41,702 nt of DNA from Bacteroidota bacterium. Lineage in GTDB: Bacteria > Bacteroidota > Rhodothermia > Rhodothermales > UBA10348. The DNA lies in contig JADFHF010000032.1 in assembly GCA_022567305.1 (NCBI GenBank), forward strand, positions 1 through 41,702, given 5' to 3'. The notes under the pieces were generated by a model. It was given only the letters and a program-made list of their open reading frames with translations. It searched no databases and was not told where the DNA came from. The position numbers and the translations under genes are program-made. Positions 14,877-41,700 of the stretch are shown in pieces (within the stretch, counting starts at the first letter, position 1; every line of letters starts with the position of its first letter).

Positions 14877-14921
14877 GTTTCCCCCTTGTTGTGTTCTTCG
14901 CTCAGGTTAGGCTCGATCTGG

Positions 14922-15056: not shown

Positions 15057-15114
15057 TTTTTTGCTCCCTACCCCCTACAAAGCCGGGGGCGTGGCTGGTT
15101 ATGAAAGCGTAGGG

Positions 15115-22065: not shown

Positions 22066-22338
22066 ATGTCGCCACAGAGTGAAGTCAGTATGCCGTCGGA
22101 TCCAGTCGATAAGCTACACGCCCACACTCAAATACCGGCGAACGACACCCAGCGCCCGATCAGTGGATTCGATGAGCACGTTCTCGAATTCTTCTGCGAC
22201 AAGGCCGACGCCGGCGGACAGTCCTTTCGGATGAAGATCCTCACCGATCATCGCGACACCAACAAGATCCGAACCGTGAATGTCGTCAAGTTACTCCGGG
22301 ACTTCGCTGATCATCTGGAGAAGACCATTGAAGACTAA
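22066..22338 (+). CDS. Hypothetical protein (90 aa)
   Basis: GCGAGGACACT precedes the ATG (MSPQSEVSMPSD). The C-terminal half is a compact charged domain (FDEHVLEFFCDKADAGGQSFRMKIL, RTVNVVKLLRDFADHLEK). No family is recognised. It overlaps the cysteine-cluster gene by 11 bp. Confidence 0.6.
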   Translation: MSPQSEVSMPSDPVDKLHAHTQIPANDTQRPISGFDEHVLEFFCDKADAGGQSFRMKILTDHRDTNKIRTVNVVKLLRDFADHLEKTIED

Positions 22339-22837
22339 GGCGTGGGAGGACCGGTGCAATCGCACTGGCGAATGCTGCCGCGTCAAGGTGCTCCATGACG
22401 GTGAGATTATCCCGGCACCGTTTCATTGTGCTCTCTTCAATACGATGAAGAATGAGTGTCTGGTCTACGATCGGCGGCGAGCCCTACGACCGGCTATAAT
22501 CGGAAAACCTTGTCTGACGATTAGCGAACTCAAAGAGCAAGACTGTCTCCCCTCGGGTTGCGGGTACCGGAAGAAGTGCAAACCCGGTCAGAAGAAACCC
22601 GGACTTGTGTTCTCTCAGGAAAAGTATGATGCTCTCCCTGAACAGCTTCGCGTAGTACTCGAGCATGAGTGGGTCGAGGATATTAGGAAGATGCGGGCCT
22701 GGATGCGAAAACAGGTCGGTCTGGGAGACGGCCCTAACGTTGACGAATTGATCGCGAAATACGATGCCCAGGAAGGGAAGAAAAATGGAGACGGAACAGA
22801 TGTCGTTTCCGGATCAGACGTGTCGGCGGTTTCTTGA
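22328..22837 (+). CDS. YkgJ-like cysteine-cluster protein (169 aa)
   Basis: A TTG start follows GGAGAAGACCA and overlaps the previous gene. The sequence has the cluster signature DRCNRTGECCRVKV at about 7-20, then FHCALFN, ECLVYDRRRAL, GKPCLTISE and QDCLPSGCGYRKKC. Nine or ten cysteines in this order resemble YkgJ/UPF0260-type proteins, which probably bind zinc or an Fe-S centre. No activity is known. The C-terminal 60 residues are helical (EQLRVVLEHEWVEDIRKMRAW). Its last 53 bp overlap the next gene. Confidence 0.75.
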   Translation: MKTKAWEDRCNRTGECCRVKVLHDGEIIPAPFHCALFNTMKNECLVYDRRRALRPAIIGKPCLTISELKEQDCLPSGCGYRKKCKPGQKKPGLVFSQEKYDALPEQLRVVLEHEWVEDIRKMRAWMRKQVGLGDGPNVDELIAKYDAQEGKKNGDGTDVVSGSDVSAVS

Positions 22838-23442: not shown

Positions 23443-23643
23443 ATGGCACCGAATAAGAAGTCTGTTCCTACGCCTGGTGAAGAACTGGCGGCTTACATCG
23501 GCTTCGTCGCGAGACTCCACGACCACCTTCGGTTATCCGGCACAGATAATCCCTCAAAGTTCGAAGCCTGCCGAAAGTGGCTTTCCGCAGAAGTAGCGGC
23601 CAAGATACCAGTGCCCGAGTCTGAAAAGGCCCCCTGGGAGTGA
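23443..23643 (+). CDS. Small hypothetical protein upstream of TerL (66 aa)
   Basis: GGTGGAGATACCGAGT precedes the ATG (MAPNKKSVPTPG). The product is helical (EELAAYIGFVARLHDHLRL, KFEACRKWLSAEVAAKI). Its stop overlaps the GTG start of the large terminase by 4 bp. Its position is typical for a terminase small subunit, but it lacks an HTH motif; a different partner protein is equally likely. Confidence 0.55.
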   Translation: MAPNKKSVPTPGEELAAYIGFVARLHDHLRLSGTDNPSKFEACRKWLSAEVAAKIPVPESEKAPWE

Positions 23644-25833: not shown

Positions 25834-26437
25834 GATGGTGCCTCCGATCGGATGGCGGTTCCTGGACAAGGAGACTGGTCATGAGTTTGTGGCCGGTGAC
25901 TTCAATTCCCTTTGCTTCAATGTCGGTGCTTACTATTCGGTTAACGATCGTACGGTACCGGAGAACCTTCCTGAGATCGTGGAAGACTGGATCTGCCAGC
26001 AGCTCACCGACAGCCTTGTTGTGGGCGGGCCTATGCACGCAATCCGTGATCGCCGGTATGTGACCTATGGGATGGCGTATTCGGCCGTGAAGAAGATATG
26101 CGAGCGGTGGCGCGATATGGGCCGGAAGTACGTTTCGCTACAGACCGCCGAGGCCCGGGCCAAGATATGCTCGGACTGCAAGTTTAACATGCCCAGCGCG
26201 GCGTGCTCTCAGTGCAAGGGCCTCGATACGTGGCTGGTGCAGTACATTCGTCGCCAGACTCACATGGACGACAACCTGTCGGTCTGTCAGGTCACCGTGG
26301 TGATGAACCGGGCTCACATACATTTTACCGAGGACGTACTCAGGTCTGCGACTCCAAGCAACTTAGTCCCACTGCATCCAGACGAGTGCTGGAAGCGTAA
26401 ACTACTGGAGGCCGATCATGTCGAGCAACCCAGCTGA
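25811..26437 (+). CDS. Zinc-ribbon protein of the packaging cluster (208 aa)
   Basis: A GTG start follows AAAGGATCGAAA. The N-terminal half (PPIGWRFLDKETGHEF...) is strand-rich. At about 110-145 it has AEARAKICSDCKFNM, then CSQCKG, a zinc ribbon with about 10 residues between the pairs; more Cys follow (SVCQVTV, DECWKRK). Similar proteins lie between TerL and portal in other phages, in my recollection, without known function. The portal start overlaps its end. Confidence 0.65.
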   Translation: MLRLKKPKMVPPIGWRFLDKETGHEFVAGDFNSLCFNVGAYYSVNDRTVPENLPEIVEDWICQQLTDSLVVGGPMHAIRDRRYVTYGMAYSAVKKICERWRDMGRKYVSLQTAEARAKICSDCKFNMPSAACSQCKGLDTWLVQYIRRQTHMDDNLSVCQVTVVMNRAHIHFTEDVLRSATPSNLVPLHPDECWKRKLLEADHVEQPS

Positions 26438-28742
26438 AGAGGTCCAGTCAGTAACTCCGACAGGCCAGCCTGTAAAGAAACGATTCCGTGATGCCAGGGC
26501 CGCAAAGAAGGTCTTCGATCGACTACACCATAACGACACCATCGCGGCCTACTATCGTGCTCAGATTCAGGGGCTCATCGACGGTAATCCGCCGTACAGC
26601 CAGGCCCGACTCCGTGAGCTGGGTCAAGGTTGGCGTGCCAACGTCAACTGGCGCGAGGCTGAGAGCACGATCGAGTTCGCCGCCGGCGCGTACTGGGAAC
26701 TGCTCATGGAGGTTCCGTCCTTCATCGACATCAAGATCATCGACTACCCTGGCAAGAAGCTCCGCAAGCAGCACCAGGAACGCCCCAATGAAGACTGGGC
26801 ACAGATCATCGCCGAAGAATTCACCACGACTCTGAAGTCCTGGGATGACTTCTATTTCAACATGCAGCAGAAGACGTCTGAGTTCCTGAAGTTTGGACGA
26901 TCTGGATGTTTCTTCCGCGATCCTTGGGATTGGCGATTCGAGTCGCTGAAGACTGCGTCGATCTTGTTCCCGGATGACACGAAGGCGACGATCGGAAAGA
27001 TTAAGCTGGCGTTCATTCGAGACGTATTCCCAGCTGACGAGTTTCTTGAGAAGATCGATTCAGAGGTTGCGCAAGAGGCGGGCTGGAACATTAAGGCATC
27101 TCGGGACGCTTTGATTAAGACCTACCACGAGGGCATCTCTCGGGACAAGATTAGTGCGAGAGACGCTCAATTCAATCCATGGGAACACGTCCAAGAACAA
27201 ATCCGGTCCGGGAACTTCTGGGAAGAGCATGAGACCGATATTGGCATCCGGGTGGTTCACGTACTCGCGGTCGAGATGAGCGGCAAAGTGTCGCACATGA
27301 TCATTCCGGAGGACTACGATCCCGACGAGGGGTACCTCTTCGAGGCCCACGAACGTTTTGACGAGATGAGTCAAGTCCTCGCGCCGTTCCTGTTTGGAAT
27401 CGGTGACGGCCGGATCCGTTCGGTCAAGGGACTCGGTCATCGAATCTTCCCGCACATGGAATATTCCAATCGGTTCCTCTGTTCCATGTTCGATGGCGCC
27501 ATGATTTCGTCTGGACTTGTCCTTCAGAACAACGGCGGCAGCGATGTCGACGCATTCCGTATTCAGCGCATAGGCCCGTTCACTATGTTGCCAAGAGATG
27601 TTTCCCCGGTACAGTCGTCCTTCGCTCCGTCGATTGAACGTTTGATTGCTGCGCGTCAGGTCCAGCAGCGAACGCTGAATAATAACATCGGACGTGCCAC
27701 TCCACGGAGTGAGGATCCGTCTGCCGAGAAGACAGCAGCGCAGGTGGGCAGTGAGGACCGGCAGGAGGCAAACTTCCAGAAGAATCAAGTCACAAACTAC
27801 TATGTTCAGCTCGATCGACTGTACCGGGAGACTTTCCGTCGTCTGGCCAACAAAGATTACGAGCAGGCCGCTGGTGGATATGATGCGCACAAGAAGTTTA
27901 TCAAGCGATGTGTGGCCCGCGGCGTACCGCGGTCGATTATCGATCCACAGTATCTCGAGATCCAGAGTTCCCGCGCGATCGGCCTCGGCTCGCCTAATAT
28001 GCGAATGCAGATTCTCGACAAGATGATGAGCAAGATTGGCCTGTATGATGAGGCCGGTAAACGCAATCTGACTCGTGACTGGACGGCCGGTCTCGCTGGC
28101 TACAACAACGTCGACCGTTACGTGCCCGTATTCAACCGGGACCAGATCCCCACTGATGAGAGTTCGATTGCGGATCTCGAAAACAATGACTTCCCGGAGG
28201 GCAAGTTTGTCTCGGTAGGATTCGATCAGAACCACGTCATCCACATTCGCCGACACATCGCGCCGATTCGGGGCATGATGCAGGCGATGCAGGAGAAGCC
28301 CGAAACCGTGGATCCGGTGCAGGCGTCTCGGTTCCTCGGAATCAGTCTCGACCACATCGATCGTCACTTGGCGTTCCTTCGGGAGAACCCATCTCAGAAA
28401 TCTCAGATTGACGGATTCACCGACTTTATGAAACAAGCTCGTCGCGTACAGCGGACGATCGATGCCCAGGCGCAGAAGGTTCTCGATCAACAGCAGCAGC
28501 AGGCCCAGCAGGATCAGGATACTTTGCGTCAGGCTGCGGATCAGACGGACGACACTGATCTCCAACTGAAACTGATGCAGCTACGGGGGAAACAGCAACT
28601 TGACTCATTGAAGGCGCAGCACGCATTGGCGCTCAAGGCGCAGAAGCAGGAGTTCAATCTCGCGCTTGCCGATCAGGAATCGGCGGCAGACATCGCACGG
28701 AAAGATCGTGTAGTGGCAGCAAACCAAGGAGTACAGTCATGA
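26418..28742 (+). CDS. Portal protein
   Basis: GGAGGCCGATC precedes the ATG. The 774-residue length, position after TerL and the N-terminal segment ARAAKKVFDRLHHNDTIAAYYRAQIQGLIDGNPPY support a portal, the dodecameric ring at the capsid vertex. The middle carries the expected mixed alpha/beta core (WDDFYFNMQQKTSEFLKFG, HRIFPHMEYSNRFLCSMFDG). The C-terminal 130 residues are a long Gln-rich coiled coil, longer than in compact siphovirus portals and closer to the size of P22-type portals. The exact family is not certain. Confidence 0.85.
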   Translation: MSSNPAEEVQSVTPTGQPVKKRFRDARAAKKVFDRLHHNDTIAAYYRAQIQGLIDGNPPYSQARLRELGQGWRANVNWREAESTIEFAAGAYWELLMEVPSFIDIKIIDYPGKKLRKQHQERPNEDWAQIIAEEFTTTLKSWDDFYFNMQQKTSEFLKFGRSGCFFRDPWDWRFESLKTASILFPDDTKATIGKIKLAFIRDVFPADEFLEKIDSEVAQEAGWNIKASRDALIKTYHEGISRDKISARDAQFNPWEHVQEQIRSGNFWEEHETDIGIRVVHVLAVEMSGKVSHMIIPEDYDPDEGYLFEAHERFDEMSQVLAPFLFGIGDGRIRSVKGLGHRIFPHMEYSNRFLCSMFDGAMISSGLVLQNNGGSDVDAFRIQRIGPFTMLPRDVSPVQSSFAPSIERLIAARQVQQRTLNNNIGRATPRSEDPSAEKTAAQVGSEDRQEANFQKNQVTNYYVQLDRLYRETFRRLANKDYEQAAGGYDAHKKFIKRCVARGVPRSIIDPQYLEIQSSRAIGLGSPNMRMQILDKMMSKIGLYDEAGKRNLTRDWTAGLAGYNNVDRYVPVFNRDQIPTDESSIADLENNDFPEGKFVSVGFDQNHVIHIRRHIAPIRGMMQAMQEKPETVDPVQASRFLGISLDHIDRHLAFLRENPSQKSQIDGFTDFMKQARRVQRTIDAQAQKVLDQQQQQAQQDQDTLRQAADQTDDTDLQLKLMQLRGKQQLDSLKAQHALALKAQKQEFNLALADQESAADIARKDRVVAANQGVQS

Positions 28743-29131: not shown

Positions 29132-29354
29132 TTCTGAGAGGGATCCGAATGTCGCGGCGGCGAAGTTCCACTTTTCGTGTGGGCTTCAGTACGCTCTCGA
29201 TAGATTGCCGAATCTGGACTTTGTGCTCTCGGAAGTCGCGAAGGGGAGTCAACTCGATGCTGACTTCGACGCCGAGAAGCTCATGCTGGAGCAGGGATAT
29301 ACAGTAGAAGAAATCGCCAAGGCGAAGAAAGTTATAGGTGCAGCGAATGGGTAA
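29001..29354 (+). CDS. Helical hypothetical protein (117 aa)
   Basis: A GTG start follows GCGAGGTGACAG. The product is helical (TMTQVQLEAYRKWKRDPQTQRSLDLLAKEA, KFHFSCGLQYALDRL). The end MLEQGYTVEEIAKAKKVI is typical of a structured domain. It overlaps the coiled-coil gene by 131 bp out of frame and the scaffold-like gene by 8 bp. No family is recognised. Confidence 0.6.
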   Translation: MAKQIHPTMTQVQLEAYRKWKRDPQTQRSLDLLAKEARPVLTADSERDPNVAAAKFHFSCGLQYALDRLPNLDFVLSEVAKGSQLDADFDAEKLMLEQGYTVEEIAKAKKVIGAANG

Positions 29355-30636
29355 TGAAGCAACAAAAAGTAAAGCGTTAGAACGATTCACACAGGTCGGT
29401 TCCCCGGGGGCTCCGCCTCCGGAAAAGGGTCCGGACGGTACGCCGGCACCGCCCGACACGGACCCCAATCGAGGGACTCCAGCCTCAGAGGTTATCCCGG
29501 CAGCGACAACACCTCCGGCACCGGCGACACCACCAGTCGTTACGCCCCCTGCGCCGGCGACTCCGCCGGTCCCAGATCCAGCCCCTCCGGTACCAGCCGC
29601 TACTCCACCGGATCCGGCGTCAGTCGCACCACCAGCAGCCGCACCAGAGACTCCGACGGCACCTGTTGAGATTCCGATTCCGACTGGATTGATACCGGGT
29701 GTTACGGATCAGACTCCGCCAGCAGCAGCGCCCGCGGTTGCTCCGGTCGAGATTTCAGAACCTGAAGGACTGAACGATGGACAGAAGGATTCCTTCGCGA
29801 AGTCTCGGATCCGGATCAAGTCGCTCGAGCAGGAGCTGACCGCAGTCCGTGCCGGCGCACCGGCGTCGGACACCGAACTGGTCACAAAGTTGCAGGGTGA
29901 AAATACCCAACTCCGGGACACGCTGGGACGGGTCAGTCTCGAGAAGCATCCTGAATTTGTAGCCAAATTCGATGATCCGATTGCTGTCAACGTCGACCAG
30001 ATAAAGTTGTACCTGAAGGAGTACGATGCCGACGAGAGTCAGGCCGATGTCATGATCGGCATGGGCCTGAAGGCCAGGACAGAGCACCTTCGGGAGCACT
30101 TCCCGGACCTTTTGTCGATCCTTCCGACGTTGTTCAACGCAATCGATCAGTTGAACACCCAGCGTGGCGTCGAATTGGAGGCCCACGCGGATAATTCGAA
30201 GGTCTACTCTCAGCAGGCCGCAGTTCAGCACACCCAGGCCAACGAGGTTCTGTTCTCGGAATCACTCAAAATGGTCAGGGATGCCGGGCAATTCCTCCTG
30301 AAGCCGGTCGATGGCAACGAGCCTTGGAACCGTCAAACCCAGATGTTCTCGGATGCGGCCAAGGGGATTTTGATGGGGAACGACATCGAGGCCCAGGCCC
30401 GTACGATCATCATGGGGACTACAGCGCCGACGCTCGTCAAACTGCTGGCCCAGGCCCATACCAAGATCAACGAGCTTCAGGCAAAACATGACAAGCTCGT
30501 GGGCGTAACGCCGGCGATCGGCGCCACCGAGGAGACGGGCAAACCTCCCGCCAATGACGGAAAACTGAAGCCAGTCGCCCCTAGTACGATCGGGGCAACG
30601 GTGCGTGCCGCGAGGGAGGCCCGGGAAAATAATTAA
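29347..30636 (+). CDS. Scaffold-like capsid assembly protein (429 aa)
   Basis: The start MGNEATKSKALERF follows AGGTGCAGCGA. Residues 15-120 are a Pro/Ala/Thr-rich disordered segment (many APATPP-type repeats). Residues 120-430 are helical and charged, with coiled-coil stretches (SFAKSRIRIKSLEQELTAVR, LVTKLQGENTQLRDTLGRV). The final 40 residues are a basic Gly/Ala-rich tail (GATVRAAREAREN). Position just before the major capsid protein and this architecture fit a scaffolding protein. No protease motif was seen. Confidence 0.7.
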   Translation: MGNEATKSKALERFTQVGSPGAPPPEKGPDGTPAPPDTDPNRGTPASEVIPAATTPPAPATPPVVTPPAPATPPVPDPAPPVPAATPPDPASVAPPAAAPETPTAPVEIPIPTGLIPGVTDQTPPAAAPAVAPVEISEPEGLNDGQKDSFAKSRIRIKSLEQELTAVRAGAPASDTELVTKLQGENTQLRDTLGRVSLEKHPEFVAKFDDPIAVNVDQIKLYLKEYDADESQADVMIGMGLKARTEHLREHFPDLLSILPTLFNAIDQLNTQRGVELEAHADNSKVYSQQAAVQHTQANEVLFSESLKMVRDAGQFLLKPVDGNEPWNRQTQMFSDAAKGILMGNDIEAQARTIIMGTTAPTLVKLLAQAHTKINELQAKHDKLVGVTPAIGATEETGKPPANDGKLKPVAPSTIGATVRAAREARENN

Positions 30637-30818: not shown

Positions 30819-32426
30819 ATGGGCGCCGAAACTCAACTTCAGCAGCAAATCTTCCAGCGCAACACCGATTTCATCAACGCGATTGAGTTCATGGACAATG
30901 TAATCGCGAATGCCTCACTCGGTTTTCGCAATCTCTGGTTCGACCTTATTCCACGCGGAGCGATGCCTCTGGGTGAAGGTCTCGTTCGTAAAACCCACCG
31001 ATTTCATGGGGCCCGTGGCGATCAAGCCGGCCTTCAGAACTGGGAGCCGATCCAGCGCGGTCGTGATCCTTCTCCTAACGATCCGGGTTATAATACCTGC
31101 AATTACTCGGCCGAACTCGTGGACTCCGGTTTCGAGACGATCGAGTGGACTGGTTTCCAGTCCTTCAAGCGAACCCCCGACATCTGTATCAACGATCTCA
31201 AATTCGACTGGGAGTTTGATCAGCAGCTCGATCTGATCATGTCCCATCTGTCCGATATCACCATCGCGACCTGGGAAAACTGGGGCCGGGAAATGTATCT
31301 GGCGCATGCCGCCGACGAAGGCAATATCTTCGTCCTCACCAACGGAAGCCCGAACGGGACTCCCCTGGTGGATCTCGGGGGCGGAAACGGAATTTACAAT
31401 CCGTTTACCAGCACCGAAATTCGGATCCCTCGGGACGTGCCCATCGGTACGCTAGAATGGGATTTCTTCGCGTGGCATCACCAGTTCCTCACGGATATGG
31501 CCCCTCGTGGCGCCGTAGCTCAGGACGGTGACATGCCTCTATTCGGGCTCCCTGTTCATCCGATCGATATCGATGACATGATTCATCGGGATCCGCAACT
31601 CCGTGAGGATCTTCGGTACTCGAATCCCAATGTTCTCGTCGAGAACTATGGAAAGGTCAAACAGTTCAAGGGCTATGCCCTGACGAACGACATACACCCG
31701 ATGCGCTTCAGGGCGAAGTCCGGTGGCACCACGGCCAGTCATATCACGCTGGAGCGAGTCCTTCCCTACTTCGAGGAAGACATCACGATCAAGACCAAGC
31801 CGCATCTGGATCCCGCGTATCTGAACGCTGAATTTGCGATGGGCGCGATATTCCTCACCGACGTATTCGATACGCTGGTGCCTGCGGCCGGTCCGGCCAA
31901 TCCGGGTGGCGGAACGAGCTTCGGTGTCACGCCGAGTCTGATGGGTGAATTCACCTGGTTGAACATCCCGGATATCGATCGGAACCCGCTGAGTGAAATT
32001 GGCCGGTACTTCGCCCGATTCCAGGGATTTGCCCGCCCGGGCATCCACAGCCAGGAAGCGATTGGCTTCCTCTACAAGCGTTGCGTTCAAACGACCGTGT
32101 TTTCGTGTATCCCCTGCGAAGTGCAGGCGGATGCCGCCGAAGTCGTGGCAGTGTCGAGCGTGACCGCGATCGTCGACGAAGAGGCCGGAGAGACTGCCGC
32201 CAGCTACACCAAGGTTTCGGTGACGTTGGCCCAGTGCCTCGACTGCACCTCGCCGAGTTCGCTCTTCGTGGACTATGCCGCGGCCGTCCCGAGCGAAGCG
32301 TTCGTTTCGGATGTCACCGGCGTATTGGTGGCAGACGCAGGCGCTCCGACGTACGAATTGATCTTCGATACGGAGGCCGACCACGCGACGCTCATCACCG
32401 CGACCGCACGGGTACTGTGTGCATAG
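30819..32426 (+). CDS. Major capsid protein
   Basis: AGGAGCAACCTATC precedes the ATG. The 535-residue protein begins MGAETQLQQQIFQRNTDFIN, followed by a long central region with aromatic and acidic strands typical of capsid subunits (FETIEWTGFQSFKRTPDICIND, ISDITIATWENWGREMYL in outline). It lies directly after the scaffold-like gene. Residues 420-535 form an extra domain with CxxC pairs at 430-433 and 473-476 and more Cys near the end, absent from minimal HK97-type subunits. That part may cross-link or decorate the shell. Confidence 0.85.
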   Translation: MGAETQLQQQIFQRNTDFINAIEFMDNVIANASLGFRNLWFDLIPRGAMPLGEGLVRKTHRFHGARGDQAGLQNWEPIQRGRDPSPNDPGYNTCNYSAELVDSGFETIEWTGFQSFKRTPDICINDLKFDWEFDQQLDLIMSHLSDITIATWENWGREMYLAHAADEGNIFVLTNGSPNGTPLVDLGGGNGIYNPFTSTEIRIPRDVPIGTLEWDFFAWHHQFLTDMAPRGAVAQDGDMPLFGLPVHPIDIDDMIHRDPQLREDLRYSNPNVLVENYGKVKQFKGYALTNDIHPMRFRAKSGGTTASHITLERVLPYFEEDITIKTKPHLDPAYLNAEFAMGAIFLTDVFDTLVPAAGPANPGGGTSFGVTPSLMGEFTWLNIPDIDRNPLSEIGRYFARFQGFARPGIHSQEAIGFLYKRCVQTTVFSCIPCEVQADAAEVVAVSSVTAIVDEEAGETAASYTKVSVTLAQCLDCTSPSSLFVDYAAAVPSEAFVSDVTGVLVADAGAPTYELIFDTEADHATLITATARVLCA

Positions 32427-32435
32427 AATCGTTGA

Positions 32436-32473
32436 CTGACTGACCGGGGGCTCTCCCCCGGAAGGTCGGTCAG
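32436..32473 (+). other. Strong intergenic hairpin after the capsid gene
   Basis: CTGACTGACC (32436-32445) pairs with GGTCGGTCAG (32464-32473) with one G-T pair, and inside it CCGGGGG pairs with CCCCCGG. No T-tract follows, so it is more likely an mRNA-stabilising or processing structure than a terminator. High capsid transcript levels could depend on it. Confidence 0.6.
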
Positions 32474-32509
32474 TAACTGAGGCTGAAATTCGAATTGAGG
32501 AGTGACACG

Positions 32510-33064
32510 ATGTTGAAGAAATCATTATTCGCAGTGCTGACGGCCGCCATGGTCGTGGGCATGATCGCCATATCGGTGTTCCACGTGGAACAATCGAAAG
32601 CTCAGAGCTTATCGGACCTTGAGGCCAGCAACGCATCGCCGGTCCGCTGGTCGATCGCGTGGAAGGATCAGAGCCTCGAACTCGGGCAGGTGAAGACGAT
32701 CTTCCAGGTGATGTATCGTTTCGACGTACATGGCGGCGCTCTTGGCAATAAGGCTCTCGGCCCGAAGACGACTTCGCCGATCATTATCCCGGCGAACTTC
32801 ATTGTCGTTGACGCCTGGATCGACATTCAGGAGCCCATTCTTCCGGCCACTTCGACGAATGCGATCTTCATTCAGTCGGCCGCAGACGTGGCGACTGGTA
32901 CCGTGGCTTTTGCGACCACAGGATTAAAGGTCTCGGTCGTCGATGGAACCTTTGCCAACGCGTTCAAGAACCTGACGAATGCGAACGTCAATCTCGTGAC
33001 GACAGGGAATGCGATCACGTCCGGATCTGCGATTGTTTTCATTGAGGGTTACAAAAGTTTCTAA
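32510..33064 (+). CDS. Head-decoration-like protein with signal peptide (184 aa)
   Basis: GAGGAGTGACACG precedes the ATG. The N-terminus MLKKSLFAVLTAAMVVGMIAI with a later QSKA/Q site (about residue 31) looks like a Sec signal. The rest follows the plan of the small protein often encoded right after phage capsid genes: YRFDVHGGALGNKALG, then IPANFIVVDAWIDIQ, then a strand-rich middle and SAIVFIEGYKSF at the end. Such a protein in other phages is a virion component. A signal peptide on it is unexpected. Confidence 0.7.
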   Translation: MLKKSLFAVLTAAMVVGMIAISVFHVEQSKAQSLSDLEASNASPVRWSIAWKDQSLELGQVKTIFQVMYRFDVHGGALGNKALGPKTTSPIIIPANFIVVDAWIDIQEPILPATSTNAIFIQSAADVATGTVAFATTGLKVSVVDGTFANAFKNLTNANVNLVTTGNAITSGSAIVFIEGYKSF

Positions 33065-33094
33065 ATCTGCGCTGCACCTGCAGAGCCTGTTCGT

Positions 33095-33129
33095 CCGCCA
33101 GCGGAGCGTACCTCGGCGCTCCCTGGCGG
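33095..33129 (+). other. Intergenic hairpin
   Basis: CCGCCAG (33095) and GGAGCG (33103) pair with CGCTCC (33117) and CTGGCGG (33123) to give 13 bp with one bulged C, closed by an 8-nt loop. It lies between two signal-peptide genes and has no T-tract. It is the second such hairpin in this operon. Confidence 0.6.
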
Positions 33130-33154
33130 CGAGCAAAAACGGAGGAATGACAGG

Positions 33155-33772
33155 ATGATTAAGACACTGACCATACTTACGCTGGCCGCTCTCTTCGCGT
33201 GCAGTTCATACGCCGAGACCGATTACATCGCACTTCCCAAGATCGAGAAAATCCGAAATGGTCAGATCGCCCTGAAGAATCCGAAGGTCAGCGGGACGCT
33301 CAAGGTCGATACGATTGAGGAGTTTACCGGCAGTGCCGGGGTTACCGTCGGCGGCGTAAGCAATCTGAACGGATCTATTGGGGCCACGAACGACGTTGTC
33401 GCAGCCGATGATATCATTGCCGGCGACGATGTGACTGCGGTTGACGACATTATCGCTGGGGACGATCTGGTCGGAGACGAGGCCAACATTGACGGGAAGT
33501 TTGCGGTGGTCGGAACAGACGCGACTACCGGCCTTATGGTTGCCAGAGGCACTTTTACGAATGGTCAGGCATCGGTAGTTTTCGGAGCCAACTTTCTCTC
33601 GGCGCCGGCGGTCGTAGTCAGCTGGACAGACGATATCAGTTCGCTCAATGCGTCGACCAACGCGTCCGTAGCGGCAACGTCAATCACCGTATCGAATTTC
33701 GTCCCAAGGGCGGTCATCGGCGTTACAATCGTCACCAACGGTAATTACATCGCGGTTGGGGCTCGTCCGTAG
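33155..33772 (+). CDS. Fibre-like protein with signal peptide (205 aa)
   Basis: ACGGAGGAATGACAGG precedes the ATG. The signal is MIKTLTILTLAALFACSSYA, with a likely cut after SYA at residue 20. Residues 75-125 hold acidic repeats (DDIIAGDD, DDIIAGDDLVGDEANIDG). The C-terminal 80 residues (GTFTNGQASVVFGANFLSAP...ITVSNFVPRAVIGVTI, ending NGNYIAVGARP) match the small beta domain that ends many phage fibres. Its downstream partner is the Cys-rich 136-aa protein. Confidence 0.7.
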   Translation: MIKTLTILTLAALFACSSYAETDYIALPKIEKIRNGQIALKNPKVSGTLKVDTIEEFTGSAGVTVGGVSNLNGSIGATNDVVAADDIIAGDDVTAVDDIIAGDDLVGDEANIDGKFAVVGTDATTGLMVARGTFTNGQASVVFGANFLSAPAVVVSWTDDISSLNASTNASVAATSITVSNFVPRAVIGVTIVTNGNYIAVGARP

Positions 33773-33787
33773 CCCTGGGGGATTCTC

Positions 33788-34198
33788 ATGGGCGCACCTA
33801 TAACGAATCTGGGCACGACCACGAAGTGCTGCCCGCCTGACTGCTGCCCAGAACAGGTCGAAGTCACAGTTGAGAATACCAATGTGACGATCAACGGCGC
33901 CGCACTCGACCCGATCGTCGTCACGCAAATCAGTCCGACCCAGGCCGATGTTGTCCTCCAGGCGAGCATCGCCGCTTCCATCGAACTCGAGGTTTGGTTC
34001 GGGGATACCGCACTTCCTGACGATCCAAAGTCCGTTGTTCCACCGAACGTTCCAGGCCACCGGGAATTCCAGATCATCACCGATGCGACCGGAGCCAAGA
34101 CCCTGCGCGTCGAAAACGCTACGCTCATAACCCGGTTTCTACATGTCTCGCTGGGAGGATTCATCGTCACTTCCCCCGCAATAACCGTGGGGGTCTAA
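33788..34198 (+). CDS. Cys-rich N-terminus, beta-domain protein (136 aa)
   Basis: GGGGGATTCTC precedes the ATG. It is the only one of the ten appendage-region genes without an export signal. The N-terminus has CCPPDCCPEQ at about 14-23. The rest is strand-rich (VEVTVENTNVTING, ADVVLQASIAASIELEVWFG, LHVSLGGFIVTS), suggesting an immunoglobulin-like fold. Near its 3' end a 7-bp hairpin (34173-34193) spans the final codons. Its stop overlaps the next start by 1 bp. Confidence 0.6.
   Translation: MGAPITNLGTTTKCCPPDCCPEQVEVTVENTNVTINGAALDPIVVTQISPTQADVVLQASIAASIELEVWFGDTALPDDPKSVVPPNVPGHREFQIITDATGAKTLRVENATLITRFLHVSLGGFIVTSPAITVGV
34173..34193 (+). other. Hairpin at the gene junction
   Basis: CCCCCGC (34173) pairs with GTGGGGG (34187), 7 bp including one G-T pair, around AATAACC. 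It ends 4 bp before the ATG of the next gene, so it can affect translation of the downstream tail-spike gene. Confidence 0.45.
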
Positions 34199-35424
34199 TG
34201 ACGCGACTAATCCTAACCGCAATCGCAACCTTCGGGTTGATGCTGACCGCGTGCGTCGCCGCAGAGTTCAATCGTAAGAACGTCGTCATTGCGGCCGACT
34301 ATGGCCCCAGGACCTCCGCCACGCTGAATCTGGCCCTTAGCAAGCTCCCGGCTGGCGTGGAGAGCGTTATCGCGGTCACCGGCGGTCGCTGGGACATCAC
34401 GAATAATGTTCTGGTTCCCTCCAGGGCCAATATGTACGTGACCGAGGTTTCGTTCTTTTTCATCGCGACGAACGTCACTTTCCGTCTGTCCGGTGGCGAC
34501 TTCAATGCGGGCCGTCAGAATGTCTTTCAGGGGCCGGGTACCGCCAATACGACCGCTGGTGTCGGCCGGTTCGACTGGCGAATCGACGACTGGGGGAGTT
34601 TTACCCAATTCGATATCGGTCTGGGTGACATAAATATCGCTCTTACCAATCAACGCATCTTCATCACGAACTACGTGAACGCCAACTTCGCCATGCGGCT
34701 GACGAATAACCTGACTATCAACATTGATACCAACGACACGATCCAGGATATTCAGGACGTCATGCTGACGATTGGCGTGGTCGATGCCGGTGTTAAGCTC
34801 ATATTCCAGTGGACTAACGGCGTTTACAATTACCCATCGCCCTTGGACTTCTTTGGGAATATCGGCGGTGCTGGTCAGGTCTGTTTGCTCGGAAACACGA
34901 ACGATCCTACTCAGGTGAAGGTGAACTTCACCAATGATACCGACGGTTTTGTCGTTATGGATAACGGAACGATCAACCTTCTGGACGGATTCGAGGTTAT
35001 CGGGGTGAATACGTCGGGAGTTCAGGCTGCTGTCTTCTCTCGAAATTCATCGTCGCTTAATGTCGGATCCAACATGATTGTCCATGATTTCCACTTCGGT
35101 TTTGCTGCCAGTCAGGCTGGTGAATTGCTGTGTATTGGTGCGACGGTGTTTGATTGCTTTGTCGGAGTCATCGCAACTCTGAATGGCACGTTGGTTGCCG
35201 ACGGTATGTTCATCGGGACCAATGCCGTTGGTGTTCAGGGCGGTGGCAGTAGCTTCATAAGAATAACTGGGGCGACGATAACTAACAACACGCTGGGACT
35301 GACCGCAAACTTCAACGGCTTCATACGGGCGGACGGTACAATCACGAACGGCAATACCACGGCGACATTTCCTGTGACCAATGTTGTGGGCAATACCCAG
35401 GGCTTCATTTCAAGGTTACCATGA
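34198..35424 (+). CDS. Tail-spike-like beta-helix protein with lipoprotein signal (408 aa)
   Basis: The N-terminus MTRLILTAIATFGLMLTACV has a lipobox LTAC with Cys at 19. Residues 30-75 (IAADYGPRTSATLN, GGRWDITNNVLVPS) match the start of the next gene, a domain often seen at the head of phage tail spikes. The middle is an aromatic-rich domain (FDWRIDDWGSFTQF). From about 215 on, regular strands and Asn-rich turns (GTINLLDGFEVIG, SLNVGSNMIVHDF) suggest a pectate-lyase-type right-handed beta-helix. It is probably a receptor-binding or capsule-active spike, although catalytic residues cannot be chosen. Confidence 0.7.
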   Translation: MTRLILTAIATFGLMLTACVAAEFNRKNVVIAADYGPRTSATLNLALSKLPAGVESVIAVTGGRWDITNNVLVPSRANMYVTEVSFFFIATNVTFRLSGGDFNAGRQNVFQGPGTANTTAGVGRFDWRIDDWGSFTQFDIGLGDINIALTNQRIFITNYVNANFAMRLTNNLTINIDTNDTIQDIQDVMLTIGVVDAGVKLIFQWTNGVYNYPSPLDFFGNIGGAGQVCLLGNTNDPTQVKVNFTNDTDGFVVMDNGTINLLDGFEVIGVNTSGVQAAVFSRNSSSLNVGSNMIVHDFHFGFAASQAGELLCIGATVFDCFVGVIATLNGTLVADGMFIGTNAVGVQGGGSSFIRITGATITNNTLGLTANFNGFIRADGTITNGNTTATFPVTNVVGNTQGFISRLP

Positions 35425-36461
35425 AGACTCTTCTCTCAATTCTTTCCTTCTGTCTTGTTTCTTCGGTCGCGGTCGGTGACACGTTGTTCCGGAAACCGGA
35501 AATAATGGCGAAGGACTACGGGCCTCAGACTTCTGGTACTTTGAATAAGATCCTGACCGATCTTGGCAGCAACCCAGGCACCGTCGTCGTCAGTGGTGGT
35601 AAATGGTCGATGACGAACAACCTCGTATTTCCGACGACGATGTCACTGGTAATCGTCCCGGGTTCGACCCTCGATATCATCTCCGGCGTGTCGATCGGAA
35701 TCAATTCCGAACTGCTGGCCGGCGACTATTTACTCTTTACTGGGCTCGGTACTGCTACCGGCACTGTCAAGTGTCTCTATCGGTTCACGTCCTGGGGTAG
35801 CCGGACTCAGTACAATATTGGAGATGGGTCTCACGCTGTGACTCTTGAGCAGCATCCGAACGCAGACACGAACAGTCTGGATGACATTACGGAAGCATTG
35901 GCCGGGGCGGGCATTACCATCGTACGAACGAATGGGACCATTACCATCAGTCAGATATCGACCAACCTCACCGTGCTCGAGACCAACGCACTGATCGAGA
36001 TTGGGATGATCATGCCCTTCATCGGTAGTACGACGCCCAGTGCGTCCTGGCTCTTCTGCAATGGGGCCCTGGTCTCCACGAACACATTCTCGAATCTCTT
36101 TGCGGAGATCGGATTTGCCCATGGCGGAAGCGGGGCTAACTTCGCGGTACCGGACATGCGGGGATTGTTTCTGAGGGGTCAGAACAGCAGCAGAACCGGA
36201 GCATTTTCTGATCCTGACCGGACCACGAGAACGTCGCCGGCAAATGGCGCCATAGTTGGCGACAAGATTGGGTCCCTACAACAGAATGAACTTTTCAATC
36301 ACACGCATACGATCGACGTGAGGGACTTCGCCGGTAACAGTTTTGTGCCGGGCGGCAGTCTGCCAGGCGCCCAACTGAAAAAGGCTCTGTCGGATATTAC
36401 CGGCGGAAATGAATCTCGACCGAAGAATATGTCTGTACGTTGGTTCATACGGGCGCTATAG
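35421..36461 (+). CDS. Tail-collar-domain fibre protein with signal peptide (346 aa)
   Basis: The ATG overlaps the previous stop. The signal MKTLLSILSFCLVSSVAVG has a likely cut after residue 19. Residues 29-100 repeat the spike N-domain of the previous gene (AKDYGPQTSGTLN, GGKWSMTNNLVFP, SGVSIGINSELLAGDYLLF). From about 195 the Phage_Tail_Collar domain is clear: GMIMPFIGSTTPSASWLFCNG, FAVPDMRGLFLRGQ, GSLQQNELFNHTHT and SRPKNMSVRWFIRA. Collar domains are found at the tips of tail fibres. Export of such a protein is unusual. Confidence 0.85.
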   Translation: MKTLLSILSFCLVSSVAVGDTLFRKPEIMAKDYGPQTSGTLNKILTDLGSNPGTVVVSGGKWSMTNNLVFPTTMSLVIVPGSTLDIISGVSIGINSELLAGDYLLFTGLGTATGTVKCLYRFTSWGSRTQYNIGDGSHAVTLEQHPNADTNSLDDITEALAGAGITIVRTNGTITISQISTNLTVLETNALIEIGMIMPFIGSTTPSASWLFCNGALVSTNTFSNLFAEIGFAHGGSGANFAVPDMRGLFLRGQNSSRTGAFSDPDRTTRTSPANGAIVGDKIGSLQQNELFNHTHTIDVRDFAGNSFVPGGSLPGAQLKKALSDITGGNESRPKNMSVRWFIRAL

Positions 36462-36470
36462 GAGATACCC

Positions 36471-36965
36471 ATGAAAAAGTTAGTCCTCATACTTGCGACA
36501 GTCCTGCTGACCTCCGTGGCGCAGGCATGGCCACCGGCCTCGGCCTCTGTTACGACCAATGCGATCATCCTGGTGCCTGCCCGACCTATCCAGTCATCCA
36601 GGGACTGGGCCACCACGACCGCGTTTGCCCAGGGGACAGTGGTCAAGAGCACGAACAACCTATTCTATTTCGCAGCGATCGGGGGCACGTCCAGCGGGAC
36701 CGCTCCTGGACATGCGCCTGGTGACGCTGTTGACGGTACGATAACCTGGCGCTGGGTGTCCGAGAGGGGCAAACGAAGGGGCCTGATCATCGTCAATGAC
36801 TCTGCCGTGAATGTGTATATTCATACCGGCGGCGGGGCCGTGACCAACAAGGGCATCCGCCTGAATGCCGAGGGCGGCACGTTCTTCAGTGGCGCAGAGT
36901 TTCAGGGCGCCGTTTCTGCTGTTGCGATATCCGGCACGAATAATGTCACCATCTCAGAGAGGTAA
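36471..36965 (+). CDS. Exported carbohydrate-binding-like/virion protein (164 aa)
   Basis: AGGAGATACCC precedes the ATG. The signal MKKLVLILATVLLTSVAQA is cut after AQA at 19. Residues 43-100 (SRDWATTTAFAQGTVVKSTNNLFYFAAIGGTSSGT is the start, with TITWRWV at the end) match a short repeat domain found in phage fibres. Residues 103-164 (RGLIIVNDSAVNVYIHTG, GIRLNAEGG, GAVSAVAISG) match a small domain common in phage head or tail proteins. Confidence 0.7.
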   Translation: MKKLVLILATVLLTSVAQAWPPASASVTTNAIILVPARPIQSSRDWATTTAFAQGTVVKSTNNLFYFAAIGGTSSGTAPGHAPGDAVDGTITWRWVSERGKRRGLIIVNDSAVNVYIHTGGGAVTNKGIRLNAEGGTFFSGAEFQGAVSAVAISGTNNVTISER

Positions 36966-36967
36966 TT

Positions 36968-38689
36968 ATGAAGAGATCCATTCTCGCGCTTTGTGTTTCG
37001 TTGCTGGCTGGCTCTGCTTTCGCGCAATCGGGCGTATCTAATCCTCGTGATCCGAATCATTCGGTTGATGCGAGTAACCTAACCAACCTGAATGTGATCG
37101 CCGGTGACGGTGTCGGCGTATCCAACGGGGTGTTCTTCATCCGTATTGGCAATGGCATTCAGTTCACGAACGGGGTTCTTACCGTGACGCCTGGCACCGG
37201 CCTATCTGTTTCCAATGGAGTTCTCTTTGCAACTGCTGTCGTCGGTACGAACGATCTTCAGGCGGTCGCCGATATCGGAGCGCAGGCAACGAACCAGTTC
37301 GAGCTTGGCGTGGGCCACGTCTTCAGCGACACCTCGCGGTCTTCGATTCTGTCCGGCAACGCAGCAATCCTCACCAATGCCGACTTCAGTGTGATTGCCG
37401 GTGGTGACGGCAATAAAATCAGAAGTGGTGATTACAACTTCATCGGGGGCGGCCAAAGGAATGAGATTGACACTGGGGGGGGTAGGGGCTGGTCGTCAAT
37501 CTTAGGTGGGTTTGAGAATAAGATTACAAGCGGAGACAGCAGTATGATAAGTGGCGGGGATGGTAATGAAATTATACCGGGCGATGGCGGGGTAGTTCTT
37601 AGGGGTTATATGTCTGCCGCTAGTGTTGGGAGTATAATCTATAGTCCATCGTCTAGTGTAGCCATTCTTGCGGGTGGAAATACTATTTCTAATGCGACGG
37701 AATCCGCGATTTTGGCGGGAAGTGCTAATGAAATTCTTGGTGACCCCAATGCGGGCGCAAATCAGAGTCGAAGAAATGCGATTCTGAATGGGCAGAATAA
37801 CATTATTTCAAATGTTAGTGCCAGTGTCACAGCTTCTTTGATAGCAGGGCACGATGGCATCCTCACTAATTCATTTGCAGTCCTTTTTGCCCTTAATACC
37901 GGCTCCCTTAAATCGTTCTCTCAGGGTGACAACACATTCGCCGTGAACGCGCCGGGAGGTATCCATCTCCTTAGCGGAACGACTTTCGTCGAGAACGCCA
38001 CCTCGGGCAAGGAGGCTCTCAATTGGCAGACCACGACTAACTTAATCTTCACTCTCGCTCCGGCCCAAGGGCTCTCAAATGTACTGGCCGTGAGTAATGA
38101 TGCCGGTGGTCAGTCGGCAACGAATTTCGGAACAAATCAAATGGTCGCCATTCAACTTGGTACCAATACTCCGATTACCGGTCAGGTCGTTAGGAGCTTT
38201 CTGACCAATGGTCAGGCCAATGTGGACTTCACAAGCCCGCTCACGGTCGACAGTAACCCTGTATTGACTGAAGCGTCGGAGACGAATCTTATCGTCTTCA
38301 CATGGACTTCCATCGGGAACCTGACCGGCGCGTCATCTTTTGATGGGTTGCGTGTGCTTTCCGATGATGCTGAGATCATCAGTTTTTGGGCGGTGACAGA
38401 TGACGCCGGCACCGCCGGAAATACGATATCGGTGAGTCTGAATTTCTCTGATATTGCGGGGTCTGACAATACGATACAGACTAACGGATGGACGTTGGCG
38501 GAGGTAACCGATCCAACGAGCAGACTGGACTTGCAGGGTAACGGTCAGGCAACGGCGCGGATACTCTATACCAATTCCTTGTTCAGTGTGACCAACTTTT
38601 CTCTCGGGGACGTGTTCTCTGTAGATATTGAGGATAGCGGCGCTCAGGCGTCGGACCTGATCGTGCAGGCAGTGTTTAGAAAGAATTAA
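36968..38689 (+). CDS. YadA-head-like fibre protein with signal peptide (573 aa)
   Basis: GAGAGGTAATT precedes the ATG. The signal MKRSILALCVSLLAGSAFA is cut after AFA at 19. Residues 35-85 have repeats of NGV(F/L) type (GVSNGVFFI, FTNGVLTVT, VSNGVLFAT). Residues 120-300 show hemagglutinin/YadA-head repeats such as SVIAGGDGNKIRSGDYNFIGGG and SILGGFENKITSGD, which build trimeric left-handed beta-rolls. The C-terminal 250 residues are a strand-rich region with 15 Thr-Asn pairs counted in the whole protein. The repeat section (37420-37910) is AT-richer than the rest. It is likely an adhesin-type fibre. Confidence 0.75.
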   Translation: MKRSILALCVSLLAGSAFAQSGVSNPRDPNHSVDASNLTNLNVIAGDGVGVSNGVFFIRIGNGIQFTNGVLTVTPGTGLSVSNGVLFATAVVGTNDLQAVADIGAQATNQFELGVGHVFSDTSRSSILSGNAAILTNADFSVIAGGDGNKIRSGDYNFIGGGQRNEIDTGGGRGWSSILGGFENKITSGDSSMISGGDGNEIIPGDGGVVLRGYMSAASVGSIIYSPSSSVAILAGGNTISNATESAILAGSANEILGDPNAGANQSRRNAILNGQNNIISNVSASVTASLIAGHDGILTNSFAVLFALNTGSLKSFSQGDNTFAVNAPGGIHLLSGTTFVENATSGKEALNWQTTTNLIFTLAPAQGLSNVLAVSNDAGGQSATNFGTNQMVAIQLGTNTPITGQVVRSFLTNGQANVDFTSPLTVDSNPVLTEASETNLIVFTWTSIGNLTGASSFDGLRVLSDDAEIISFWAVTDDAGTAGNTISVSLNFSDIAGSDNTIQTNGWTLAEVTDPTSRLDLQGNGQATARILYTNSLFSVTNFSLGDVFSVDIEDSGAQASDLIVQAVFRKN

Positions 38690-38697
38690 GGAGTAAT

Positions 38698-39483
38698 ATG
38701 AAATCGAAACTATTAACTTTCATCGCCTGCCTGATTTTGTCTTCAGGTCTTTCGCTGGCGGAGACCGCAGAGTTCGCACCACCCGGTTACGTCTCAGGCT
38801 GCAAGATGATCTATGTGACATCGAACAGTATCACCATCACTTCGGGGAAGTTGTCCGATAGCACAGACTCTCAGTACATGGTGCTTTCGACGAACGTACT
38901 CGTGGATATCACGAAGAGTGGGGACAACGGACTTGATACCGGAACCGAAACTTCTAATCTGTGGTATGTCGTTTTTGTAGCAGTGGCGACTAATCAGTCA
39001 ATCGTCGGGGTTCTTTCCACGAATATGTCCGGACCGACTGGGTATACTGACTTCAGGGTGATCGGCTGCGTAAGGAACGATTCTAACAAAGATATTCGTC
39101 CGTTTATTCAGCGGTGGAACGGATCGACCAGGCTCTTTGAATGGGACGCAGCGATAGCCGACACACGACCATTGCAGAATGGTAATTCCACGACAAATTT
39201 CGTTTTGGATTTGAGTGATTATGTTCCGCCAACCGCCACGTCCGCCAAGTTGCAAGTTTCTTTCGAATCTGGAGCGTCGGGTAGTGCGTCCGACTCTTTA
39301 AGGCTCAAAGCTGACGGAATAAATAACTCAACTCTGAGGCTGAGTGCTGGGGTAGTCAGTACCGATAAAATAATTACCAATGGTGACATGTCGACGAGCG
39401 TTGATCAGAAGATTACCTACAAAGTGGACTCTACGAATAATCGAGCAACCATCGTGGTCAAAGGATATTACGACGAATTATGA
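38698..39483 (+). CDS. Phage fibre-domain protein with signal peptide (261 aa)
   Basis: AAGGAGTAAT precedes the ATG. The signal MKSKLLTFIACLILSSGLSLA is cut after residue 21. The mature part opens PPGYVSGCKMIYVTSNSITITSG and continues with NGLDTGTETSNLWYVVFVA, FRVIGCVRND and a late TSAKLQVSF. Phage tail-fibre domains have the same GYxSGxxxxxxSxxxITxxxG start and GLDTGxxxxxxWYxVxxI step, as I recall them. Its final ATGA overlap leads to the next exported gene. Confidence 0.75.
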   Translation: MKSKLLTFIACLILSSGLSLAETAEFAPPGYVSGCKMIYVTSNSITITSGKLSDSTDSQYMVLSTNVLVDITKSGDNGLDTGTETSNLWYVVFVAVATNQSIVGVLSTNMSGPTGYTDFRVIGCVRNDSNKDIRPFIQRWNGSTRLFEWDAAIADTRPLQNGNSTTNFVLDLSDYVPPTATSAKLQVSFESGASGSASDSLRLKADGINNSTLRLSAGVVSTDKIITNGDMSTSVDQKITYKVDSTNNRATIVVKGYYDEL

Positions 39484-40781
39484 AGTATGTACTCACACTT
39501 ATTGCCCTCGTGATTCTCGACTGCGATGGTATGGCTGCGACCAGCAACCGATTCGTTTTGTCGCTCGCCGGTCAGCTTCAGATCGTTGACGGAAAGGTTC
39601 TGGTAGAAGAGTTCCCGTTGCCTACGGGGCCGTATCCACAATTCGGAAGCACCGTTCAGATATGGGAGTTGAATGTCACTAACAACCCAACGCCAGACAG
39701 CAGCGCGAATGGCGCGAACACTGGCATACTGGCCATCGGAGTCGGGGCGCCCACATTTATAGCCGCCACCAATACTATAAGCGCCTACTATAGCTTTGAC
39801 GGCGGCGACAGTATTACCGGTAGCGTAACGCAGGCCAAGGGTACATACGGATTTTGGGCACTCACCAATGATGTCTGGCACAGTTTCCTATTCGCGGACG
39901 GCCTGAAGTTCGACAACGCCGTGACGGGGACATTCACTCTTGCGGGCTTCGTTACGACGGGCGCGACTACTCAGATATGGGGCGAGAACCTAACCGGCGG
40001 ACTCGACAAGCCCACGATATGGACGGTCGCGCTCGACTCGGACGATGCGTTTAGCAATCACTGGATATCGGCCACCAATTACGGATGGATGAGGATCGAC
40101 TCTCCGTTTATCGCGAGCAATGACCACGACGTATGGAGCAATAGCCTGTTTGTATCAAGCTTTGAGTATGCGTTCCCCGCGGACACGTCGTTTGTCTTCA
40201 CGAACAATCTGGCCTTTCCGGGAGGCCCGAACGATCCTACGCACGAGAACGACGGAACTAATTCATGGTTTGATTTCTCAATCGGCGCGTGGTTCGCGAA
40301 TGGTGATATTGTGGACGTGACAGGCGATCTGTCCATCTTTTGCTGGGTGCGCCCTAATTCGGCCGTCGGTTTGGCGGAATTTGTTGTCAACAAGTGGGAT
40401 TCTGGAAGCGGACAGGCTCAATATGTTCTGTTTTACACCGGCGACGTGAGAGCCGCGCTCTCTGACGACGGCGCCTTCACGGCCCAGCGGAACGGGGCTA
40501 CCACACTCACCGACGGGATATGGAGTCATATAGGATTTGTTTTTGACGCGGGAAGCCAGACGTTAGATGTTTGGCTTAATGGCGTAAATAATAACGGGAG
40601 CCTGAGCGGGACCATCCCAACGAATTTATTTAATAGCACCGCTCCTTTCACCGTGGGCGCGGGGTCTGATTTTGGGGCACAAGTTAGCGGCGATATAGAC
40701 GATGTTCGCGTGATCGAGGCCGCCATGACTTCGGCGCAAGTGACTAACCTGTATAATTCAACAGTAGGGAGACACCCATGA
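39480..40781 (+). CDS. LamG/concanavalin-like lectin-domain protein with signal peptide (433 aa)
   Basis: The ATG overlaps the previous stop. The signal MKYVLTLIALVILDCDGMAA is cut near residue 20. Residues 30-250 are a strand-rich domain of unknown type. From about 265 the Laminin-G/concanavalin A-like fold is plain: DVTGDLSIFCWVRPNS, EFVVNKWDSGSGQAQYVLFYTG, DGIWSHIGFVFDAGSQTLDVWLNG and DIDDVRVIEAAMTSAQVTNLYN at the end. Such domains bind sugars. A surface-glycan-binding role is likely. The gene is AT-richer toward its 3' end. Confidence 0.8.
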   Translation: MKYVLTLIALVILDCDGMAATSNRFVLSLAGQLQIVDGKVLVEEFPLPTGPYPQFGSTVQIWELNVTNNPTPDSSANGANTGILAIGVGAPTFIAATNTISAYYSFDGGDSITGSVTQAKGTYGFWALTNDVWHSFLFADGLKFDNAVTGTFTLAGFVTTGATTQIWGENLTGGLDKPTIWTVALDSDDAFSNHWISATNYGWMRIDSPFIASNDHDVWSNSLFVSSFEYAFPADTSFVFTNNLAFPGGPNDPTHENDGTNSWFDFSIGAWFANGDIVDVTGDLSIFCWVRPNSAVGLAEFVVNKWDSGSGQAQYVLFYTGDVRAALSDDGAFTAQRNGATTLTDGIWSHIGFVFDAGSQTLDVWLNGVNNNGSLSGTIPTNLFNSTAPFTVGAGSDFGAQVSGDIDDVRVIEAAMTSAQVTNLYNSTVGRHP

Positions 40782-41209
40782 ATAGACTTGTTGCCATATT
40801 AATCCTGATCGCAGGCCCATGCTGGGGGCAGCGGTTGGTTTATCTCCAGATCGCTATAACCCCGGAACAATACACGAACGCCACGACCCGGAGTCAGGTC
40901 GGCGCGGCCTTGATTGATTTCGCAATGGAAACGGATACCCCAGCGAACCGCGAACGGTGGATGACCGGATGGCCTAATAATTACTGTCGAATATCCGATA
41001 CTAACAAGACGTTTCACCTAGTCAGAGTATCGGCGCTTCAGGCCAAGCGGGAGACCCTTCGGAGAGATGGCTTGCGGGATAGCGTTAAGACGCGGTATAA
41101 GAATCTGATGCGGCGTCCCGGCGTCAGGGTGTCGATCAATAACACGCCCGGTGATACGGCTAAAAACGTGTGGGGCATTAAACCGAAACCAGGGAGACGC
41201 GGACCATGA
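40778..41209 (+). CDS. Small exported protein (143 aa)
   Basis: It starts in an ATGA overlap. The signal is MNRLVAILILIAGPCWG, with a likely cut after residue 17. The mature part has RLVYLQIAITPEQYTN and a helical, basic middle (ALQAKRETLRRDGLRDSVKTRYKNLMRR), then a basic tail. No family is recognised. The basic character differs from the acidic fibre proteins before it. Confidence 0.6.
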   Translation: MNRLVAILILIAGPCWGQRLVYLQIAITPEQYTNATTRSQVGAALIDFAMETDTPANRERWMTGWPNNYCRISDTNKTFHLVRVSALQAKRETLRRDGLRDSVKTRYKNLMRRPGVRVSINNTPGDTAKNVWGIKPKPGRRGP

Positions 41210-41700
41210 CCCGAATACTTGTACTGATGGCGGCGGTGATGATGGCCGGGTGCGGAACTTTTCATATTAGGCCGGTCCCTCCGACGCCTTTAATGAGTTC
41301 TTCCGGTCTGATGGTGATGCAGGGTGTTAACATCCAGCACGAGCGGGGTGGCAAGGCGCGTGTTCGATTTGCGGTCGAAGGTGACGACGACGAACCGGGT
41401 CACTTTGGCCGCAACTGGGGCAAGTATCTATCTGGTGCTGCTACTGTTATTATTGGCGATTATTTAGAGGACGGCGAGATAGATGGTTATGGAATTTTTG
41501 ATCGGGGATCTGACTCTGATTCATACCATTGTGATTCTGAAGGTCGTACTGGAGAAAAGATTCAGTTCCGTGGGGATGATAATAGGTTATCATTGCATGG
41601 TGAAAGTCTTTCTTCTGATTTCGTAATTTGTGTTGATGGTAATAGGAATACATTATCTGCTCAGCCAGCAGAGCCGTTGCAGCTTTTGCTATTGAGATAG
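41206..41700 (+). CDS. Putative lipoprotein (164 aa)
   Basis: The start overlaps the previous stop. MTRILVLMAAVMMAGCG has a lipobox-like MAGC with Cys at 16. The mature part holds a disordered acidic segment (VEGDDDEPGHFGRNWGKYL) and an Asn/Asp-rich end (IQFRGDDNRLSLHGESLSSDF, VDGNRNTLSA) resembling short beta-helix rungs. The last 270 bp are markedly AT-rich. The stop lies 2 bp from the window edge, so the operon probably continues. Confidence 0.65.
   Translation: MTRILVLMAAVMMAGCGTFHIRPVPPTPLMSSSGLMVMQGVNIQHERGGKARVRFAVEGDDDEPGHFGRNWGKYLSGAATVIIGDYLEDGEIDGYGIFDRGSDSDSYHCDSEGRTGEKIQFRGDDNRLSLHGESLSSDFVICVDGNRNTLSAQPAEPLQLLLLR

Follow-up and report, generated by a model that had tools for sequence, protein, structure and literature searches.

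Predicted export signals in a putative phage tail-fibre locus on a contig from a Bacteroidota genome bin

The stretch of DNA analyzed here (the window; 41,702 nucleotides) is one complete contig (JADFHF010000032.1, C16), lacking terminal repeats, of a binned 3.76-Mb Bacteroidota genome (GCA_022567305.1). In the window, rightward genes for a probable terminase, portal, scaffold and capsid protein, in this order, are followed by a block of 11 genes that extends from position 32510 to the end of the contig, and ten of the 11 products are predicted to carry amino-terminal signals for the general secretory (Sec) pathway. We tentatively interpret this block as a podovirus-type tail-fibre (receptor-binding) locus, with distal parts that would be synthesized as Sec precursors and exported, and with a signal-free product of the fibre-anchoring gene. 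The fibres of tailed phages normally fold and assemble in the cytoplasm, without signal peptides. The first-pass annotation had described ten rightward genes past the capsid gene, nine of them with signals; the location is as described, and the counts become 11 and ten. Its central observation, virion-type appendage genes with export signals, is borne out by an independent second phage, denoted G467, in which the trait recurs at a genuine tail-fibre locus.

Signals were called with an in-house rule that considers the charge of the N-region, the hydrophobic h-region, and the residues at positions -3 and -1 or a lipobox. The rule flagged the block genes that start at 32510, 33155, 34198, 35421, 36471, 36968, 38698, 39480, 40778 and 41206, two of which (34198 and 41206) encode a lipobox, and none of the other 51 genes of the window (hypergeometric probability about 1e-10). 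When checked on a stretch of the Escherichia coli genome, the rule recovered 8 of 9 Sec proteins and falsely called 1 of 13 cytoplasmic ones, along with some membrane anchors; it flagged 1.6% of the open reading frames of shuffled sequences and never two consecutive genes in phages T7 and P22. Two fibre anchors of phage BcepMigl were called falsely, with weak h-regions that scored 2.04 and 2.38, compared to 2.4-3.6 in the block. The small-residue cleavage regions of 17 proteins from the window block and the second phage surpass those of shuffled tails (p 0.0035). Most of the block starts can be considered fixed because of a stop/start overlap or a GGAG-type ribosome-binding site.

All genes of the block are on the plus strand, and they are tightly packed. 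The only one without a signal (33788-34198) is homologous to the C-terminal part of the fibre-anchor gene of G467 (E-value 1.4e-4) and, like that gene, sits just before the spike genes. The latter encode an exported spike-like protein of 408 residues (34198-35424; lipobox LTAC or cleavage site VAA|EF) and an exported protein of 346 residues (35421-36461) that combines a spike N-domain with a tail Collar domain (PF07484, 2.8e-15; phrog_523, 4.9e-24). The Collar domain exceeds the curated PF07484 cut-off (56.5 bits against 24) and matches solved T4 gp12 chains in profile searches (3e-11). An N-domain of approximately 100 residues is common to the two proteins; their C-termini differ, with no collar in the 34198 product. 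Fibres that have an attachment part in common are usually built in this way. The structure model of the 35421 product is confident only over approximately residues 30-90, which are strand-rich and spike-like, and yields no significant fold match.

The remaining block genes are more diverse. Upstream of the signal-free gene are protein 1 (184 residues; 32510-33064), which has a predicted signal with a long h-region and a possible cleavage site, SKA|QS, but could alternatively be a membrane anchor (its hydrophobic segment is 22 residues long), and protein 2 (205 residues; 33155-33772), with a predicted signal and a weak, below-threshold similarity of the C-terminus to H-type lectins (PF09458, E-value 0.058). 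Downstream of the collar gene, the block encodes a small exported fibre/decoration-like protein (36471-36965; phrog_19864, 1.7e-7, with weak fibre matches); an exported protein of 573 residues with IxGGxxNxI-type repeats, a signal ending in AFA|QS and no family match (36968-38689); an exported fibre-like protein of 261 residues with weak matches to annotated phage fibres (38698-39483; phrog_17105, 2.7e-8); an exported LamG-domain protein of 433 residues (39480-40781; PF13385, 2.4e-15); a protein of 143 residues with a predicted signal (40778-41209), possibly the counterpart of a G467 protein (L234:10382-10840), the resemblance not being significant; and a predicted lipoprotein of 164 residues with the lipobox MAGC (41206-41700). 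The virion-type cores proposed in the first-pass annotation are supported in part, namely for the collar, the LamG domain, the fibre-like protein 38698 and the shared spike N-domain, and more weakly for 36471; family searches did not recover the proposed YadA-like repeats of 36968 or the decoration fold of 32510, for which the structure model is also poor and of low confidence.

The second phage (IMGVR_UViG_3300017989_000014 in IMG/VR; loci L234, L243 and L244) is a 60.9-kb podophage, the block of which is also present in 3300017987_000135 and 3300029267_001802, with 99.99-100% identity over 19 kb across three metagenomes; beyond these three copies, no close relatives of G467 were found. It contains seven consecutive exported genes (7/7 distal genes with predicted signals), flanked on either side by recognized virion genes (capsid, phrog_267, 8e-55; hub, phrog_511, 2e-144; terminase, phrog_2, 3e-21). 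The spike-collar protein of G467 matches the 35421 product over 369 residues that include the signal and the N-domain (5.9e-30), and the N-domain alone matches the 34198 product (1.8e-7); the exported run of G467 also includes a LamG protein. Directly before this run lies a signal-free gene with a tail-fibre N-terminal domain (phrog_30299, 4e-10; BcepMigl gp60, 1e-8), the C-terminus of which is homologous to the 33788 product; in the window, unlike in G467, two exported genes precede this position. A single protein family, phrog_8469, spans both halves of the arrangement, with model positions 18-107 matching the anchor gene and positions 141-229 matching the exported collar genes. In G467, these halves are encoded by adjacent genes, the anchor half without and the collar half with a signal.

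Given the homology and position of 33788, the fibre locus of G467 and the two halves of phrog_8469, the block is read as a split fibre locus. The components of this reading that come directly from sequence are the run of signals, its location past the capsid gene, the independent second phage and the adjacent anchor and collar genes of G467. The first-pass annotation listed three functions without choosing among them; export of distal fibre parts appears to fit best, considering the signal-free anchor gene, the fibre-locus position and the shared N-domain on differing C-termini. Under this scenario, the distal fibre proteins would be translocated by Sec, their signals would be cleaved by signal peptidase, and the mature proteins would accumulate in the periplasm or on the outer membrane and dock onto anchor-bearing particles during or after lysis. 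Attachment to finished particles in vitro is possible for P22 spikes and T4 fibres. More speculatively, and with less confidence, we suggest that some tailed phages possess a two-compartment host-recognition apparatus, in which the particle and the fibre anchor are cytoplasmic, whereas spikes, collar tips, lectin-like and LamG proteins mature in the envelope after Sec transport and are joined to the particle when the cell opens.

Several observations weigh against this interpretation. The export signals are predictions made from sequence by an in-house rule; the contig ends at the block, before any hub gene; and the 33788 protein itself lacks the anchor N-domain. If particles are built in the cytoplasm, they would have no contact with exported fibres before lysis. 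The terminases, portals and capsids of the window and G467 show no detectable similarity to each other, and therefore the trait either travels with the fibre module or has more than one origin. Furthermore, exported collar proteins encoded on Bacteroidota and Verrucomicrobiota chromosomes are as close to the window protein as any phage protein, and the collar trees, which are poorly resolved, show no grouping of the exported phage collars. If the interpretation is nevertheless correct, signal-bearing distal fibre genes break the rule of cytoplasmic assembly, or point to a new phage use of receptor-binding proteins, and link phage fibres to the exported collar proteins of Bacteroidota and Verrucomicrobiota chromosomes. 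The block provides a signature that can be searched for in sequences.

Among the alternatives, we regard a role as decoys or receptor masks as unlikely although worth serious consideration: free receptor-binding domains would be exported late, coat the cell or its debris, and block superinfection as well as the binding of progeny to debris, with other fibres on the virion. The Llp lipoprotein of phage T5, an exported receptor blocker, is a precedent. Cores of receptor-binding type (collar, LamG and lectin-like) with signals, the two lipoboxes, and the signal-free genes past the hub of G467, which could encode fibres, agree with such a role. It is less easily reconciled with a run that takes up the very fibre locus and adjoins a signal-free fibre anchor, or with the sheer number of different decoys, 7 and 10, and the proteins lack a type IX sorting tail for reaching the surface, if the binned genome is that of the host.

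It appears rather improbable that the hydrophobic starts serve inside the virion, for example, as trimerization or membrane-contact segments. The customary cytoplasmic assembly of fibres and the 22-residue segment of protein 1 would be in line with this possibility. However, cleavage sites and lipoboxes make such a role less likely: a charged start, a short h-region and a small-residue site recur in 9-10 different proteins, the c-regions are better than shuffled ones, two proteins have lipoboxes, and approximately 150 other collar genes do without such starts.

We consider it similarly improbable, and somewhat more so, that the block is lysogenic-conversion cargo, that is, host-type secreted proteins, such as adhesins, captured by the phage and displayed on the cell surface. 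Exported proteins encoded on Bacteroidota and Verrucomicrobiota chromosomes are among the closest relatives of the collar, and in phage lambda, lom and bor are exported genes inside the late region. However, the shared spike N-domain is absent from the chromosomal proteins, the run in G467 is nested between the capsid and hub genes, family searches detected no integrase, and the promoter and terminator sites around the block genes that would be expected of morons are no more common than in shuffled sequences. The nesting of the run in a late operon and its lack of the type IX C-terminal sorting domain make stand-alone adhesins less likely: no such domain was found in the window, whereas the binned genome has 55 hits, at least 48 of them over the cut-off, as fits a Bacteroidota-type bacterium. 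An origin of the block in the host chromosome was considered and rejected, given that its codon usage is closest to that of the phage late genes and that the compared parts of the bin contained no match to any block gene. Finally, an artefact caused by a chimeric contig or wrong start codons, conceivable for a window that is a whole contig of a bin without terminal repeats, is very improbable considering that gene overlaps and ribosome sites fix the starts and that the second phage is independent, with its block in three assemblies.

In a survey of 160 viral loci with a collar gene (two scans, start-corrected scoring), only one phage, G467, had three or more signal genes in a row; the approximately 156 loci beyond it included one with a convincing exported collar (L164) and three doubtful frames. 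L164, from a third contig of podophage type, contains two isolated genes with signals in the tail region (7686-8513 and 13980-15818), one of which encodes a collar domain and directly follows a hub-like gene. No signal run was found in Salinibacter phage M1EM-1, the host of which possibly belongs to the order of the bin, an order that is itself our presumption. Outside phages, the 35421-type collar domain has exported chromosomal relatives in Bacteroidota and Verrucomicrobiota (40% identity, 6e-27; 39%, 9e-30). In addition, four contigs from Verrucomicrobiota and Kapabacteria (L330, L338, L339 and L340) carry clusters of exported genes that encode collar-domain proteins and proteins of 1,500-2,800 residues; a literature search found no description of a function for these clusters.

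Internal promoters and terminators in the block are not above chance. Two strong RNA hairpins without a T-run, one 3' of the capsid gene (32433-32480, plus strand; fold z -3.25) and one between the first two exported genes (33087-33137, plus strand; fold z -4.5), suggest graded expression. Sites of the GGAG type (Shine-Dalgarno-like) precede 25 of 43 phage genes, compared to 15-22% in the bin; therefore, the bin may not represent the host.

The four genes that lead to the block, from the terminase to the capsid gene, were named by motif, size and order because family and BLAST searches recognize none of them. The probable large terminase (23640-25496, plus strand) has Walker A (WWGPAASGKTT) and Walker B (VIDE) motifs; the probable portal (26418-28742, plus strand; 774 residues, C-terminal coiled coil) is assigned by size and position, the probable scaffold (29338-30636, plus strand) by composition and position, and the probable major capsid protein (30819-32426, plus strand; 535 residues), which has no PDB match either, by its place after these three. 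Relatives of the capsid, portal and terminase were found neither in IMG/VR and INPHARED nor in 198-245 related genomes, nor those of the capsid in named genomes. A search of the rest of the bin for the missing half of the phage pointed to C28, the contig that deviates most among the unmasked ones, but it is not phage. On the minus strand, between 2 and 17.7 kb, are genes for a DnaB-type helicase, an exonuclease and a RusA-like resolvase, among others. Upstream of the terminase, two small genes begin with motifs resembling twin-arginine translocation signals (19968-20231, MKRRNFLATLAGIPWLGWL; 20356-20697, MKRRKFLLSLLGVPFVGCA, with a lipobox), and two proteins without Pfam matches contain an HECQHVAHH motif, perhaps of a small metallopeptidase (20848-21366), and a cysteine cluster, CNRTGECCRV (22280-22837).

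As the first-pass annotation stated, no described system appears to fit: full-text literature searches found none that matches virion-type appendages with export signals. The lom and bor morons of lambda resemble the block in placing exported proteins among late genes but occur one gene at a time, outside the fibre locus and without fibre-type cores. The T4 gp12-type short tail fibre (PF07484) shares the Collar domain with 35421, whereas gp12 and approximately 150 sampled viral collar genes lack a signal, and the N-domain of gp12 differs. The exported chromosomal collar proteins, for which the literature search yielded no description of a function, possess both a signal and a closely related collar domain, yet have a YQG-type N-part and lie outside phage late modules, in contrast to the spike N-domain that 35421 shares with G467. 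Similar in organization is the fibre locus of Bcep22-like podophages (Lessievirus; BcepMigl gp60-gp62, JC1 gp56-gp59), which lies between capsid-side genes and a gp63-type hub, as it does in G467; JC1 gp56 has been detected in virions by mass spectrometry (PMC9144972). In G467, three short genes past the run are followed by a hub that resembles gp63 (4e-54), and there are additional matches to gp66 and the giant gp69; G467 has the same capsid-fibre-hub-giant order as BcepMigl and JC1; the N-domain of the G467 anchor gene matches gp60-gp62. In the window, the capsid side of such a locus is present. Fibres of a Bcep22-like locus would be expected to lack export signals, whereas 10 of 11 block genes in the window and 7 of 7 distal genes in G467 are signal-bearing. 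In BcepMigl, the anchor is part of each fibre and the two rule hits were judged false; in the window phage and G467, separate genes encode the distal parts, with predicted Sec signals.

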